Shown piece after piece: positions 4,401-62,994 of a DNA stretch of 64,000 nt. Source of the stretch: Halichondria panicea (taxonomy: Eukaryota > Porifera > Demospongiae > Suberitida > Halichondriidae); the NCBI RefSeq assembly GCF_963675165.1, contig NC_087381.1, positions 372,001-436,000 of the forward strand, in the 5' to 3' direction. The notes below the pieces were generated by a model, which was not told the DNA's origin, did no database searches, and saw only the letters and a program-made list of their open reading frames with translations. How positions within the stretch are numbered: the stretch's first letter is position 1; each line of letters starts with the position of its first letter. The position numbers and the translations under genes were made by a program.

Positions 4401-5337
4401 AATTCCTGTACACACTTGACATGTTAACTATAATTAGCATCACAACAGATACTGGAAAAGTATAACTCTGAGAGCTATTGAAATTGGCAATCAGCTGAGC
4501 ACACAATTATTTACAGGCTCTCAAGATAGCTGCCAAAATCAGTATTATTATAGTCAAGCTGTGTGTTCTGTAATGTTATGTAGGGCTAATGGTACTCACC
4601 CTAATTCTCCAACACGTCCGAAAGTTATATAAGTATTGTACACCAAGATCCTACAAGCCACTTCAGCGTCTGCTGTACTGAAGCCATTATCACACACTGT
4701 TCCCCACTGGCCATTGATGCGTATCTCCAGTCGACCAGAGGAGCCACCCGTCTTTCCGACATTGTCCACTAGCCTTAAATTCTCAGTGATTTGACCTGCA
4801 GGCATGCAATTTTGATATAAATAATATATATATATAGCTAGGAAACAGAATACAGTGGAACCCCTCTAGCTATAACGAACACTTTTGGGCAATGTTTTGG
4901 CCTTTGTTGAGGGGTTGTTTTTGTACACATAATTATATCTGTTCGTTTGGGACCTGGCCGTTATATTGAAGTTGGCCTTTTTTCAGGGGGTGGAGGTTTC
5001 AGTGTATTTTATTATCATTGCTGATTGACAACAACAGAGGCTACTGTATTTATAGTACTATATATAGCGGGTAATTTTCGTGGGCAGCTAGGCTGACCTC
5101 CACGAAATTTTATCGTAGGTGTGGCTTATCTGAACGTAGGAATGCTGTGCAGCCACGAAATTTTTACTCACAAAAACTACCGTTTCTCGAGTTGAACGAA
5201 TTTTTTACCCCACGAAACTTACCCGCTATACGGTATTATAGGCTATTATAATTATTATGTGTCTCACCTTGTGTATGCTGCAGAAAGGTGACTAGCATGC
5301 AAACTAGGAGCCCCACTATTGAAAGCATCTTCTGCAT
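1407..5337 (-). CDS. SRCR-transmembrane receptor B (two SRCR domains, PPDY/PPY tail)
   Basis: Exons (minus strand): 5268-5337 signal peptide ([20 protein letters not shown]), 4600-4795 and 4161-4309 first SRCR, 3515-3692 and 2250-2410 second SRCR, 1407-1948 membrane and cytoplasmic part. All junctions keep frame with GT donors and AG acceptors. Both SRCR domains have the six group A cysteines (for example [20 protein letters not shown]). After a Tyr-rich stretch (YIYYY) comes a membrane helix ([15 protein letters not shown]). The tail of about 145 residues is proline-rich, holds QAPPDY and LPPYP, and has serial PSITLP-type repeats. It is a type I surface receptor by layout. A hAT-like MITE lies in the intron between the two halves of the second SRCR domain. 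Confidence 0.85.
2571..3394. mobile_element. hAT-like non-autonomous DNA element (MITE)
   Basis: The ends are inverted repeats: CAGGGGCGGATCCAGG at the left and its complement CCTGGATCCGCCCCTG at the right. The flanks share CCTCC as a possible short target duplication. Just inside each end lie G/C-rich stretches with stem-forming runs (GGGGCTGAAGCCCC at left, GGGGCTTCGCCCC at right). The inside has no coding capacity and includes a tandem copy of a roughly 40-bp unit near 3057-3140. CAGGGGCGGATCCAGG-type ends are familiar from hAT-class elements of aquatic animals; family assignment rests on that memory. It sits in an intron of SRCR gene B. Confidence 0.75.
4851..5006. mobile_element. MITE, TACAGTGGAACC family, TA-flanked
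   Basis: A 156-bp element in the first intron of SRCR gene B. It begins TACAGTGGAACC and ends GGTTTCAGTGTA, an inverted repeat ending in TA. The body reads GGCCTTTGTTGAGGGGTTG and related words that recur at 18.04, 19.12, 26.65 and 53.85 kb. TA borders suggest a Tc1/mariner-type mobiliser, as inference. Confidence 0.65.
5063..5230. mobile_element. MITE, TATAGCGGGTAA family
   Basis: A palindromic element of about 168 bp. The left end is TATAGCGGGTAATTTTCGTG; the right end is its near-perfect complement (CACGAAACTTACCCGCTATA). No coding content. Similar ends occur at 26.04-26.24, 28.72-28.88 and 63.06-63.13 kb. Confidence 0.65.
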
Positions 5338-55077: not shown

Positions 55078-55649
55078 CCCTTTTCACCTCACTTAAGTAA
55101 AATTGTACAAGCAAAAAGCAGAATGCTATCATTCTAATTGACCTGCAGTGTGTAGACTAGTGTACAGAGCCTATAGTGTGGTCCCACTGTGCGCACTGTA
55201 GCTAGTGTACAGAGCCTATAGTGTGGTCCCACTGTGCGCACTATAGCTAGTGTACAGAGCTTATAGTGTGGTCCCACTGTGTGCACTGTAGCTAGTGTAC
55301 AGAGCCTATAGTGTGGTCCCACTGTGTGCACTGTAGCTAGTGTACAGAGCCTATAGTGTGGTCCCACTGTGCACACTGTAGCTAGTGTACAGAGCCTATA
55401 GTGTGGTCCCACTGTGCGCACTGTAGCTAGTGTACAGAGCCTATAGTGTGGTCCCACTGTGCACACTGTAGCTAGTGTACAGAGCCTATAGTGTGGTCCC
55501 ACTGTGCACACTGTAGCTAGTGTACAGAGCCTATAGTGTGGTCCCACTGTGTGCACTGTAGCTAGTGTACAGAGCCTATAGTGTGGTCCCACTGTAGCTA
55601 GTGGTTGAATTATGTTTTCTCTAAAAATGTAGAGTTTAATTGAAAAGGG
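55078..55649. mobile_element. MITE with 45-bp minisatellite (copy 5, reverse)
   Basis: Inverted relative to copies 2-4: left CCCTTTTCACCTCACTTAAG, then CTAATTGACCTGCAGTGTGT, about ten 45-bp units, then GAAAAGGG. Units differ mostly at the TGTGCGCACTG / TGTGTGCACTG positions. Confidence 0.75.
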
Positions 55650-57682: not shown

Positions 57683-60600
57683 ATGCAACTAAAGCTGAAT
57701 GGAATGGACGAGGAAATTGTCTCACAAGCATCAGCCAAGGACTTCACCATTCATCACGTAATTGAAACCACCCATCACTATCTGGTGGTTGCAGCCATCT
57801 GTACTATAGAGAAAATTCAAGATCAAAACAAGCTCTACACTGTAAAGGTACTATTTGACGATCAGTCAGAAAGGGAAAAAGACATCTTCGACAATGAGCT
57901 GCAAATTTTGTCAGCATTGCCTTCGCATCGAAATATTGTCCACTGCCATTCAAATTTTATCAGTATTCTTCCCGAGTCGTTCTTAAAATGTCTACCACAA
58001 CTCAAAACGACCGAGCAAAGGGAGGTGATCCAAGTCAGAAGACAATTTATTGTATGTGACTACTATGCTCAGAATTTATCTGATTGGTTATCGAAAAAAA
58101 CATTTCCGTTGCGTTTGGAGGATGTCTTGAAACTAGCCGAGCAAATTTTGAGTATTTTCAAACATTTGAAAGAAAGCCGAATTTGTCACCTCAAGATTGA
58201 ACCGAGTAATTTTCAAATGACAGAAAGCGATAAGATTGTAATCAGTGACTTTCAACATGCAGTGCAGTTTGAAGATGAATCATTTCTACTTCCCTGTCAG
58301 CGAGCAGAGCTAATTTCTGATGATGATAGTGCGTACCTTGCGCCTGAGGTCATGAATCAGCTGTACCAGTGTGGAGGAAATTCATCAATATCAGGTACCG
58401 TATATCGGGTTTTGAATGAGAGGTTAAGTAATTGCGAATGACACTGTACAAGCATTGATTGCGTTTCTAACTATTGCGAATTGCATGGGAAATTGCATGC
58501 TCATGCTCACTCTTTGCGTTTCTTTCGATTGCGAAAATTCGCAATTCGTAATCAACCAGTATGCAGTTGAATAATGAATTATCCACTCTCTCTTTCATGC
58601 ACAGATGCTACGATTGACTGCTCTTCACAATCGTCGTTTGCAGCAGGCGTCCTCATTATGTCAATCAGTACAGGAACACACCCACTACCAGCTGGCTACC
58701 CCACCACCTACACAGACAGTAGCAACAACATCACCTACAGTAAAGCGAATATAATCCCTCTACCGAGAACCTACCCGAAGAGTTTCCACTCCATCGTTCA
58801 AGACCTGCTAGTGTGTGAGCCTGAGAGGCGATTGTGCGTGAGTGAGGCTCTGAACCAGCTCAAGGTGTGCTGCTCAAAGAGGAAGACTGTCAGCCTCTCT
58901 GAGCTCAGGGGATTGTCAGGCAGAGAGGAGGGAAGTGAAAGTGTGAGCAACTATTATATATAGTGTTAAATACAGCCAAGCGTATAGCATCAGATCGAGA
59001 TGGCATGTGTATTATAAGCATTATGCATTGGAGTTATATATACATATCTATAACTCTATACATTGTAACTACAACCGAACACCGAACATCATAATTACTC
59101 ACAAACACTTGACTGAGTTGCTCATATCTCTCCATGCAGGCTCTATTGAAGGCTGCACATGCTGAGAGAGACTGTGCAATAATGGAGAGAGATCACGTAC
59201 TCACTCAAAGAGACGAGGCATTGCAGCTCAGAGATGCTGCGCTAGTTGAGAGAGAAGAGGCCATCTTGGAGAGAGATGATACAATAGCCGTGGTGGAGAG
59301 GCTGTCTGAACAGTGTGAGAAGATGTCTAGTGAGTTCCAATCAATGGAAGATCACTGCGAACTATTGCTCAAAGAAATCGAGCAGGTATAATTATAAGTG
59401 GTGAAGTATTTAGAGTATATGATTATCCACCTAACCGTATTATATCAGCTAATTTTCAAGAGTTTGCAAATTACCTGAATTTTGTGGATAGAGAGAGTTC
59501 AATGTAGCCCCATGCGACTTTGTTGTATTGAATATATACCCACGCATCAAGTGCATGGCAGAAAATAATTATTGTATACCCCTCGGTGTAACTTGCATTG
59601 TATCAATTTAATCGCTAGCTTTTGGAAGTTTATAAATGTTATGTGTTTTGTTCCAGCTCCGCATTGATCGGGACAGTGCAGTACAAGCCAGTGCTAGTGC
59701 CTACCAAGCTGGGGAGCTGCTCAGAGATCAGCTGTCACTGGTAACCAGGGAGAGGGACATAGCACAAGCAAAGGTGTCCATTACATATCAGATTACAAAT
59801 GTAATGAGATTGTGTTAATTAGGTGGAAGAGCTTCGAGATGTAGTAACCAAGGCGCAACCTGAGGAACAGGTTATGTAAGTTATACGCATGCATGATGGT
59901 GAACTGAGCTTAGCATCTGCATGCATGGAGCGCTTTGATTGTTAACATTTCTGCATGTAATGAAGTATTTCTGAGCGCCATTTGATTGTCTGCATGTATA
60001 AAACACTAAAAATACGTGTACATATACTTTCTATAGGGACTGTACATGTTGTCACAAGTTCTTTCTGGAGTCTAGGAATACTTCAACTTCATGCAACTGG
60101 CATACTGGGGTAAAATGCGTAATTATTACTACTAAAATAATGTTACTTTATTTTCCACACACACTCGATCGTCTGGTCTCATTCACAAATACAGAAAGTA
60201 AGTCTCATTGTAATTGTCACTATGTATCACTCACCCCCCCCCCCTCCCACACACACACATGTATATACTAACTCCTCCTGATAGTACGTAAGTTAATAAT
60301 TATTATTATTTCTATAAAGTATAGTGCATAATCTAAGTACTTCTTCCTCTCTCCTGCATTCATTACGACTGGACCTTTTCTTCTTTATATACAGTTGGTG
60401 AGTTATGTACATATAGCAATAATATTAATATTTTAAAGTGACTCTTCCCCAAAAATGCAAACTTCTAATGGAATCCATGGACACCTCCAATAGTTTGTAA
60501 GTCAATTTCTAGTAACTTATTTCAATACATTATTCACAGGTTTATATGCACACAAACACACACAATCTGAACAATCATTACTACCACTGTGGACTGAAAC

Positions 60601-60779
60601 AGAATGTAAGTTCGGAACCTGAATATTACAACTATTACCCCCCCTACCCATGACCACACCTCCCATAGAGATGGAGTTGCTGCTACAAGCGTGACACTGA
60701 GGCTGTTGGATGCAAGACCAGTACACACACGGCCAGAGCAGTGCTCAATGAACACACTTATGACCTTGTAGCATCGTGA
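57683..60779 (+). CDS. Pseudokinase, coiled-coil, CHORD-like zinc module protein
   Basis: Exons: 57683-58394, 58605-58942, 59140-59385, 59657-59773, 59823-59875, 60037-60109, then five proposed 3-nt exons (60195, 60285, 60395, 60494, 60603) and 60669-60779; about 554 residues. The kinase fold keeps the VAIK-type lysine (YTVKVLF) and APE (YLAPEV). It lacks a glycine loop, has HLKIEPSNF in place of HRDLKPEN, and DFQ in place of DFG, so catalysis is unlikely. Exons 3-5 form a charged coiled coil (RDEALQLRDAALVEREEAIL). The end carries MDCTCCHKFF, SCNWHTG, RWSCCYKRD and GCKTSTH, a Cys/His spacing like CHORD zinc modules (HPG, WSCC, GC). An AATAAA lies near 60.82 kb. Function unknown; a scaffold is plausible. 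Confidence 0.82.
60195..60605 (+). other. Array of five 3-nt microexon candidates
   Basis: Five islands have the form YAG-NNN-GTRAGT: AAA at 60195, TAC at 60285, TTG at 60395, TTT at 60494 and AAT at 60603. Spacing is 90, 110, 99 and 109 bases. Each is preceded by a plausible branch or pyrimidine region; the second has a perfect TACTAAC 20-odd bases upstream. Inclusion would add Lys-Tyr-Leu-Phe-Asn in frame between HTG and RWSCC. All bounding exons are phase 0, so frame does not distinguish inclusion from skipping. Confidence 0.65.
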
Positions 60780-61515: not shown

Positions 61516-62994
61516 ATGTACAGCACAAAGATGGGCTCGAATGTGAAGATTATCGCCTTTGTGCTATTGACAATTTCAATGTATGGAGGTCTATTCTTTG
61601 CTGTGTGGAATCTACATACTCAAAGTACAAACCAGCAGAACCAAATCACAGAATTGCAAAGTCTAAAATCTGAGAATGCAAACCTACAGAACCAAATCTC
61701 TGAATTGCGAGGCTTTGTCGGAGCTAATCCAAACCCCCACTCGAGTGATGAAGCCACGGTGATGGACACACTAAAGCGACTAACTCGACAATCCGGTTCC
61801 TCTCAAAGTGCTACTGATCTACTTGCTGATGCTCTGACAGAACTAATTGAAAAGAAACTCTACACTATAATGGACTGTGATAGAGATGACGCTGATAATT
61901 TAACCGACTGTTCGCTCAAGCCAGGCTCAAAGGGGGACAAGGGATGCCTGGGTGATCAAGGTAAAGAAGGCTCTCAGGGAATGATCGGAGAGCCTGGGGT
62001 CAAAGGACACATCGGCTACCCTGGTCATAAAGGGGAGGTGGGTCCAAGGGGTCCTATCGGCGATCCCGGCCCAATGGGGTACCGAGGGGTTAAAGGAGAT
62101 ATGGGCGAGATCGGTCAACGAGGTGAGGCGGGGGTTAAAGGCGAGCGAGGTTTTAAAGGACATTATGGTTTCCCAGGACACAAAGGCGAGAGTGGCGGGC
62201 CAGGTGCCAAGGGGGTTAAAGGAGATCGAGGCTTTGGAGGCAATAATGGACAAAAGGGAGAGAAAGGAATGACGGGAGTGCCAGGTCCACCGGGACCTAT
62301 TCCCACTATTCCCTCTGAGGCGTGTGGTGGTCTTGGATGGAGGAAGGTGGCATTCATTGATATGACTGATACTAGCCAAAACTGCCCTCAAGGACTAACA
62401 CTGACTGGCTACTCAAAACGATCATGTGGTGCAGCACATACAGGTAATCACGCTTGTTCATCAGTCACCTTTCCTGTTGGTGGAGGTCAATACAGTCGAG
62501 TGTGTGGGAGAGCTAAGGCTTATCACTATGGGTGGCTACATTCCTTTTATGGGTATAACCGTGCTTCACATGGTATCAATGCACAGTACGTTGATGGACT
62601 AAGCTTCACTCATGGAACACCTAGGACACACATTTGGACATTTGGAGCTGGATTATATCAACGTAGTGGTACTACCCATGGAAACGAACGTTGCCCTTGT
62701 AGCCAAGGCAACACCTACAGCCCCCCTCCTTTTGTTGGTAATGATTATTTCTGTGAGAGTGCCGTACATTCTTTGTCTCCAATTGGAAGTAACATATTTC
62801 ATGCTAATGATCCACTTTGGGATGGTCAGGGCTGTATCCATGGCAACCCGTGCTGTCAGTTAAACAACCCACCATGGTTTACCAAAACACTACCAACCCC
62901 CACAACTGATGATATTGAAATGAGAATGTGCATATGGCAAACTGCAAATGCTGGTAACATTGCTCTTGAACAAATGGAACTATACGTCTACTGA
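61516..62994 (+). CDS. Membrane-anchored (type II) collagen-like protein, intronless
   Basis: One exon of 492 residues. A short cytosolic start is followed by a signal-anchor helix (IIAFVLLTISMYGGLFFAVW), so the C-terminus should be outside. Next is a coiled coil with heptads (QNQITELQSLKSENANLQNQ) for trimerisation, then about 45 Gly-X-Y triplets (for example GEPGVKGHIGYPGHKGEVGP) with one or two interruptions. The C-terminal 220 residues form a Cys-rich globular domain (GWRKVAFIDMTDTSQNCPQG, WTFGAGLYQ, LWDGQGC, TTDDIEMRMCIWQ). I recall this domain behind collagen stretches in sponges and cnidarians. An adhesion, matrix or pattern-recognition role is inferred. Lack of introns contrasts with every neighbour; retroposition or a single-exon family are both possible. 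A second Met lies at 61531. Confidence 0.9.
   Translation: MYSTKMGSNVKIIAFVLLTISMYGGLFFAVWNLHTQSTNQQNQITELQSLKSENANLQNQISELRGFVGANPNPHSSDEATVMDTLKRLTRQSGSSQSATDLLADALTELIEKKLYTIMDCDRDDADNLTDCSLKPGSKGDKGCLGDQGKEGSQGMIGEPGVKGHIGYPGHKGEVGPRGPIGDPGPMGYRGVKGDMGEIGQRGEAGVKGERGFKGHYGFPGHKGESGGPGAKGVKGDRGFGGNNGQKGEKGMTGVPGPPGPIPTIPSEACGGLGWRKVAFIDMTDTSQNCPQGLTLTGYSKRSCGAAHTGNHACSSVTFPVGGGQYSRVCGRAKAYHYGWLHSFYGYNRASHGINAQYVDGLSFTHGTPRTHIWTFGAGLYQRSGTTHGNERCPCSQGNTYSPPPFVGNDYFCESAVHSLSPIGSNIFHANDPLWDGQGCIHGNPCCQLNNPPWFTKTLPTPTTDDIEMRMCIWQTANAGNIALEQMELYVY

Follow-up and report, generated by a model that had tools for sequence, protein, structure and literature searches.

Known systems of very short exons

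Very short exons and consecutive microexons are already known; they are summarized here as far as the available text of the cited sources goes. Among vertebrate genes, a 3-nt exon is described in TLN1 (PMC4317164) and another is named for NCAM (PMC8042270). Human RPS24 contains three consecutive microexons (3, 18 and 22 bp) that are used alternatively (PMC12686416), and collagen genes are mentioned as having tandem micro-exons (PMC4317164). The MEGs of flatworms are defined by micro-exons of <70 nt that constitute at least half of the exons; these genes contain runs of at least four exons of <70 nt, and skipping of micro-exons varies the protein (PMC7653826). Plant microexons of 1-15 nt are conserved, coding and mostly included, and in VPS55 the 1-nt exon has conserved GTRAGT donors (PMC8831610); 1-nt exons as well as adjacent exons of 5 and 12 nt are described (PMC8831610, PMC11096116). 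Zero-nucleotide recursive splice sites (AG/GT), which leave nothing behind, are typically situated in introns >10 kb (PMC13149111).

We analysed a gene of the sponge Halichondria panicea located in a 64,000-nt stretch of DNA (hereafter the window, i.e. this stretch at its full length). The gene very probably carries five consecutive constitutive microexons of 3 nt, one codon each, between short GT-AG introns; the encoded pentapeptide, KYLFN, would form the spacer between His and CysCys in a zinc motif.

One-codon exons are common to this gene and the vertebrate genes NCAM, TLN1 and RPS24, but here there are five consecutive exons of 3 nt, apparently constitutive. For comparison with the MEG criteria of at least seven exons and at least four consecutive exons of <70 nt divisible by three (PMC7653826), the sponge gene has 12 coding exons and five such consecutive exons. 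Its micro-exons, one codon each, make up 5 of the 12 exons (a further exon of 53 nt is not divisible by three), whereas in the schistosome and tapeworm MEGs described in that source they make up at least half. Adjacent microexons number two at most in the available descriptions of plant genes, in contrast to the five adjacent one-codon exons found here. With zero-nucleotide recursive splicing, as far as it is described in PMC13149111, the locus would share the use in turn of a nearly abutting acceptor and donor; it differs in that a codon is left and in that the total length is 559 nt. All five exons, with 3 nt each and YAG/GTRAGT borders, fall within the usual microexon size (up to 15-30 nt, with canonical splice sites).

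The first-pass annotation of this DNA held a serial array of such exons to be undescribed. The literature that we searched agrees with it, as we found there no run of at least two one-codon exons, and thus none of five; most subscription papers were outside the scope of this search, which makes it weak evidence of absence.

Gene model

The gene occupies positions 57683-60779 on the + strand; its 12 coding exons are open throughout and encode a protein of 554 aa (Table 1). The model was built by comparison with P0001, a homologous database protein (see below). The order of domains is a pseudokinase, a coiled coil (identified by eye) and a Cys/His-rich zinc tail similar to the BTK and CHORD motifs. 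The 49-base intron that the first-pass annotation had placed in the same gene is present upstream of exon 5.

Table 1. Features of the gene model (positions in the window)
Feature	Positions	Strand	Basis
Exon 1: pseudokinase domain, first part	57683-58394	+	gene model; Pfam Pkinase E 9e-19; aligned with P0001
Exon 2: kinase domain end	58605-58942	+	gene model; donor picked by comparison with P0001
Exon 3: coiled coil (by eye)	59140-59385	+	P0001 alignment, gene model
Exon 4: coiled coil (by eye)	59657-59773	+	P0001 alignment, gene model
Exon 5 (53 nt), after 49-nt intron 59774-59822	59823-59875	+	gene model
Exon 6 (73 nt): zinc tail first half, ends HTG, phase 0	60037-60109	+	parse, gene model
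Intron, 85 nt, donor GTAAAA	60110-60194	+	parse, gene model
Microexon 1: AAA = K	60195-60197	+	unique parse; K in P0001
Intron, 87 nt, donor GTAAGT; TACTAAC at 60266	60198-60284	+	parse, gene model
Microexon 2: TAC = Y	60285-60287	+	parse; P0001
Intron, 107 nt, donor GTAAGT	60288-60394	+	parse, gene model
Microexon 3: TTG = L	60395-60397	+	parse; P0001
Intron, 96 nt, donor GTGAGT	60398-60493	+	parse, gene model
Microexon 4: TTT = F	60494-60496	+	parse; P0001
Intron, 106 nt, donor GTAAGT	60497-60602	+	parse, gene model
Microexon 5: AAT = N	60603-60605	+	parse; P0001
Intron, 63 nt, donor GTAAGT	60606-60668	+	parse, gene model
Exon 12: RWSCC, remaining zinc tail, stop TGA	60669-60779	+	parse, gene model

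By eye, the kinase signatures HRD and DFG are replaced by HLK and DFQ in the window gene, and its kinase fold is thus probably that of a pseudokinase. The usual signatures are also absent from P0001, which has HLE and KID at these motifs, while P0002-P0005 (see below) retain HLD and DFG (both by eye). Judged from these sequences, the window gene appears to form a pseudokinase branch with P0001. A genome search with P0002 (E <= 1e-10) recovered two exons of the window gene and one other match (E 1.4e-11); apart from the window gene, no strong member of this kinase family was found in the genome.

Two more features were observed in the window outside the gene: a tandem array at 55151-55595 (45-nt unit, 9.9 copies, 97% matches) and, downstream of the gene at 61530-62440, collagen-like repeats that follow a short hydrophobic N-terminal stretch (by eye).

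Array of five islands

A pattern scan of 60110-60668 identified five exact matches to YAG-NNN-GTRAGT, all on the + strand, starting at 60192, 60282, 60392, 60491 and 60600 (start-to-start spacings of 90, 110, 99 and 109 nt). The triplets inside these islands are, in order, AAA, TAC, TTG, TTT and AAT; joined, they give the 15-nt insert AAATACTTGTTTAAT. The scan reproduces what the first-pass annotation had reported (five exact islands with these triplets, spaced by 90-110 bases), and the ~0.009 matches that it expected by chance are of the right order of magnitude. Dinucleotide shuffles of the stretch (n = 5,000) produced a mean of 0.0058 matches with a maximum of 2, and the four matches of the window that lie outside the array correspond to 0.018 expected matches per 559 nt of one strand, with P(>=5) of ~1e-11. 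In the whole window, both strands, there are nine matches as compared with a shuffle mean of 3.0; none of the 100 shuffles reached nine.

The hexamer GTRAGT occurs 38 times on the + strand of the window, and each of the five occurrences inside the 559-nt stretch is an island donor. When the spacer of YAG-N(L)-GTRAGT was varied from L = 0 to 15, L = 3 alone was present in the stretch. The zero-nucleotide recursive splice site, YAGGTRAGT, has no occurrence on the + strand of the window; every island keeps 3 nt between acceptor and donor.

One of the matches outside the array is situated on the minus strand at 5217-5228 (TAGCGGGTAAGT). It recurs as a repeated pair at G000:C15:1609214 and is, for this reason, probably derived from a repeat rather than a microexon.

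A homologue with the same spacer

A protein-database search with the tail as query yielded one homologue, P0001 (E 1e-46, 69% identity over the 109 residues searched). The query included KYLFN; the strength of a match over 109 residues should be independent of these five. At the insert P0001 reads HTGKYLFNRWSCCYKRD, with KYLFN identical; the stretch around it is SCSWHTGKYLFNRWSCCYKRD. In the alignment of the window tail with P0001, 85 of 122 residues are identical (58/81 before the insert, 5/5 within it and 22/36 after it), and the identical run that spans the insert has 18 residues.

The frame of P0001 is a single uninterrupted one of 627 aa that fills its 2,035-nt contig, while the frames of P0002 and P0003, members of the same kinase family from contigs of 195,793 and 237,766 nt, stop shortly past the kinase domain, where an intron is expected. 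On these grounds we take P0001 to be, probably, a spliced RNA. P0004 and P0005, from contigs of 2,426 and 2,502 nt that may be DNA or RNA, likewise stop shortly past the kinase domain. As no second copy was seen in this genome (the window gene aside, its matches to the tail have E 2.6e-4 or weaker), P0001 is probably from another species, and in its own gene the spacer may be continuous. A protein-database search with a 92-aa tail gave no candidate. Relatives at the DNA level were sought among 310 pattern-matching stretches in a genome-contig database and 98 in a viral-contig database; none was confirmed in either.

Unique splice parse

We enumerated splice parses of 60038-60779 with GT or GC donors and AG acceptors, setting the minimum intron length to 20, 30, 40, 50 and 60. 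For the tail with KYLFN, exactly one parse was found at every minimum length, with five 3-nt exons and six phase-0 introns. The tail lacking KYLFN also has one parse, the skip of 559 nt. Contiguous or alternative coding of KYLFN inside 60110-60668 was ruled out, as no further GT/GC-AG parse exists. When KYLFN was replaced by random pentapeptides, 0 of 3,000 were encodable (minimum intron 40, GT-AG); the chance that five random codons would spell KYLFN ranges from 0.9e-7 with all codons equally frequent to 3.5e-7 with the base use of the window.

The sequence of the array, the uniqueness of its parse and the identical spacer of the homologue are direct observations. Because the parse is unique, this species, if it makes a tail of the P0001 type, must use the five microexons, barring a copy absent from the assembly. 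The first-pass annotation had proposed that inclusion adds K-Y-L-F-N between HTG and RWSCC and that skipping joins these two in frame. Both statements hold, the former with an identical P0001 sequence and a sole KYLFN parse that uses the five microexons, the latter with the skip parse. Its reading of the islands as microexons gains support from the same two results, and inclusion of all five is favoured over skipping.

Zinc motif with and without the insert

With the insert, the ligands of the window tail and of P0001 are spaced as H-x10-CC-x9-C, the same as in L028, the contiguous BTK motif on C15 that is the best in the genome; the skipped form has H-x5-CC-x9-C. L028 reads HPG-AYIKN-KWSCC, with a spacer of 5 residues. 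The genome search for BTK produced 19 matches. We counted seven of them (L028-L034, six of which exceed the Pfam cut-off) and left out the window gene itself (L035) and 11 weak matches (L036-L046; E 0.37 to 7.9). The spacers of these seven other BTK-like motifs have 5 residues (L028, L033), 4 (L030) or 8 (L029, L031, L034 and L032, the last read as L006); none has 0. Five of the weak matches (L036, L037, L039, L040 and L043) were inspected and appear unlike relatives, although L040 has HFQTGRYSCC, in which the gap is shorter.

The Pfam BTK profile (PF00779, cut-off 24 bits) hardly separates the two forms of the window tail, which score 23.5 bits with the insert versus 22.8 skipped. The tail of P0001 scores 24.2 bits, the whole of P0001 21.4 and the whole window protein (first model) 19.2. 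With the insert alone the His is in the profile register of L028 (profile 2-29 from residue 26, versus 5-29 from residue 24 for the skipped form). The Pfam CHORD profile (PF04968) gives 14.2 bits with the insert, below its cut-off of 24.6, and the skipped form is not listed. Among weak PDB matches, CHORD protein-1 (E 0.031) and RAR1 (E 0.94) are listed with the insert and not for the skipped form; the match to ITK is nearly equal for both (E 0.26 with the insert, 0.29 skipped). Both forms also have several PDB matches to ordinary zinc fingers, which carry little meaning.

The zinc motif of BTK/Tec proteins stands directly after a PH domain; the Pfam matches of the full-length window protein include no PH domain. 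The first-pass annotation had likened the insert to the short run between HPG and WSCC in CHORD modules; the spacing of the zinc ligands is closer to that of a BTK motif than to that of a CHORD module. Since the insert sets the distances between the presumed metal ligands, the form with full inclusion would be the working one.

The genome search for CHORD gave six matches, of which L050, L053 and L055 were read. In the CHORD gene on C16 (L050, 1381-1560) an intron was seen by eye inside the spacer from His to CysCys, near the place of the microexon array.

Splice signals and order of intron removal

The five microexon donors (four GTAAGT and one GTGAGT) all conform to GTRAGT, versus one of the gene's remaining six. 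Acceptors are YAG at 5/5 islands. A point against the model is that pyrimidines account for only 48-72% of the sequence close to the 3' end of each of the six introns. The exonic bases next to the donors are the codons AAA, TAC, TTG, TTT and AAT, fixed by the protein, and recognition is thus plausibly carried by the six intronic bases.

With acceptor and donor 3 nt apart, two introns that share an island could hardly be occupied together, a geometry that would make removal stepwise; the shortness of the introns would favour intron definition. The 559 nt would then be removed in steps by intron definition (introns of 63-107 nt with consensus donors), each step leaving one codon. Introns that are not adjacent could leave in one round, which would set the minimum at two rounds.

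A stricter proposal concerns order only and is compatible with five constitutive microexons: the 559 nt would behave as one intron removed by recursive splicing in a 5' to 3' relay, in which each island serves as acceptor, then as donor, and deposits its codon. The relay points with 3-nt remnants that the first-pass annotation offered as its second option are likewise the same structure, viewed by the sequence of splicing events. We consider such strict order possible but doubtful. In its favour, the geometry should bar simultaneous use of the two sides of an island, and the introns flanking plant microexons are removed consecutively, not simultaneously (PMC8831610). However, according to the available text of the same source, the downstream intron is more often lost first, which is the opposite order, and for that reason we refrain from assigning a 5' to 3' direction here. 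Moreover, the recursive sites described in PMC13149111 are typically zero-nucleotide sites in introns >10 kb, a type of site absent from the + strand of the window, and the direction of removal is not readable from sequence.

Constitutive or alternative use

The islands could instead be alternative microexons with varying inclusion, giving up to 32 in-frame forms; the zinc motif would then be adjusted to the cell type or the stage, comparable to neural microexon programmes or flatworm MEGs. Any subset of the islands would keep the frame, given 3 nt and phase 0, and the animal microexons described in the sources available to us are often alternative cassettes. Still, all five are present in P0001, the one transcript-like homologue, each of the seven further BTK-like motifs that we read has a spacer of at least 4 residues, and GTRAGT is found at all five donors. 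Alternative use appears unlikely on this evidence, and we infer that the five microexons are constitutive.

Rarity and origin

Genome-wide (131 Mb), we found 41 triples of AGNNNGTRAGT with gaps of 75-105, versus 3 in the reversed control; three of the 41 belong to the window array. Of the other 38, 36 are situated in tandem repeats (on C1, C2, C6, C8, C11 and C12) and two are mutual near copies (C3:4138167 and C12:4228523), as judged by eye from at most 80 letters each. Island pairs with gaps of 60-90 numbered 17, versus 16 in the reversed control. Two of these pairs are from the window array; among the remaining 15, 11 repeat the same trinucleotide, three have trinucleotides that differ by one base and are located in tandem repeats (L013, L014, L020), and the last has unlike trinucleotides outside a tandem repeat (L027, C16:1088884). 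Outside repeats, no second array of three islands was seen in the genome at gaps of 75-105. Within the spacings searched, the array appears to be a single event in this genome; as nothing comparable was seen, it might be a peculiarity of no broader significance.

In the BTK-like motifs of L028 and its kin the spacer is encoded in one exon, which makes intron gain likely. Repeated intron gain inside a once continuous spacer would be the likeliest origin of the array; codon-by-codon growth of the spacer within an older single intron is a conceivable alternative. For a plant gene with adjacent microexons, the authors infer gradual intronization, according to the available text (PMC11096116).

The gained introns might be introner copies or tandem duplicates that split the once continuous spacer, a scenario that agrees with the one-exon spacers of the paralogous motifs and with the statement, in the available text of PMC9860276, that introners are commoner in aquatic species. 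Against it, the genome gave no match to an 801-nt query with the stretch other than the query itself (simple repeats and very common words being skipped by the search). Pairwise comparison of the six introns (15 pairs) also revealed no clear likeness: the best score, for introns 3 and 4, was reached by 1/200 shuffles and the next, for introns 1 and 2, by 4/200. We therefore rate this scenario as quite improbable, although the copies could be old, decayed insertions. Tandem duplication of the islands themselves is unsupported, with a single weak AT-rich repeat pair in the stretch and introns that have no clear mutual similarity.

Implications

That the islands are chance decoys, with 60109 spliced straight to 60669 and the spacer lost, is hardly credible: an in-frame skip parse does exist, but against it stand the minute chance probabilities given above for five islands and for KYLFN, and the presence of exactly KYLFN in P0001.

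Five constitutive one-codon microexons are thus the reading that we retain. For 15 nt of coding sequence, six introns would have to be removed, an extreme case with respect to both exon size and serial splicing. A further step, for which we see the case as evenly balanced, would be to regard this conserved chain of one-codon exons as a coding form of recursive splicing, with 559 nt removed in obligatory steps that each contribute one amino acid to a zinc-binding loop. On the five-microexon reading, gene prediction or read mapping that fails to resolve exons of 3 nt would yield a clean-looking but false junction between exon 6 and exon 12, and with it an altered zinc motif. If true, the array would exceed in length any run of one-codon exons in the literature searched, and an animal spliceosome would have to cope with five successive exons too short for acceptor and donor factors to be bound simultaneously. 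The locus would then make it possible to test how order is maintained where neighbouring introns compete for three bases, and how such structures originate, whether by intron gain inside a run of codons or by codon-by-codon growth of a spacer.
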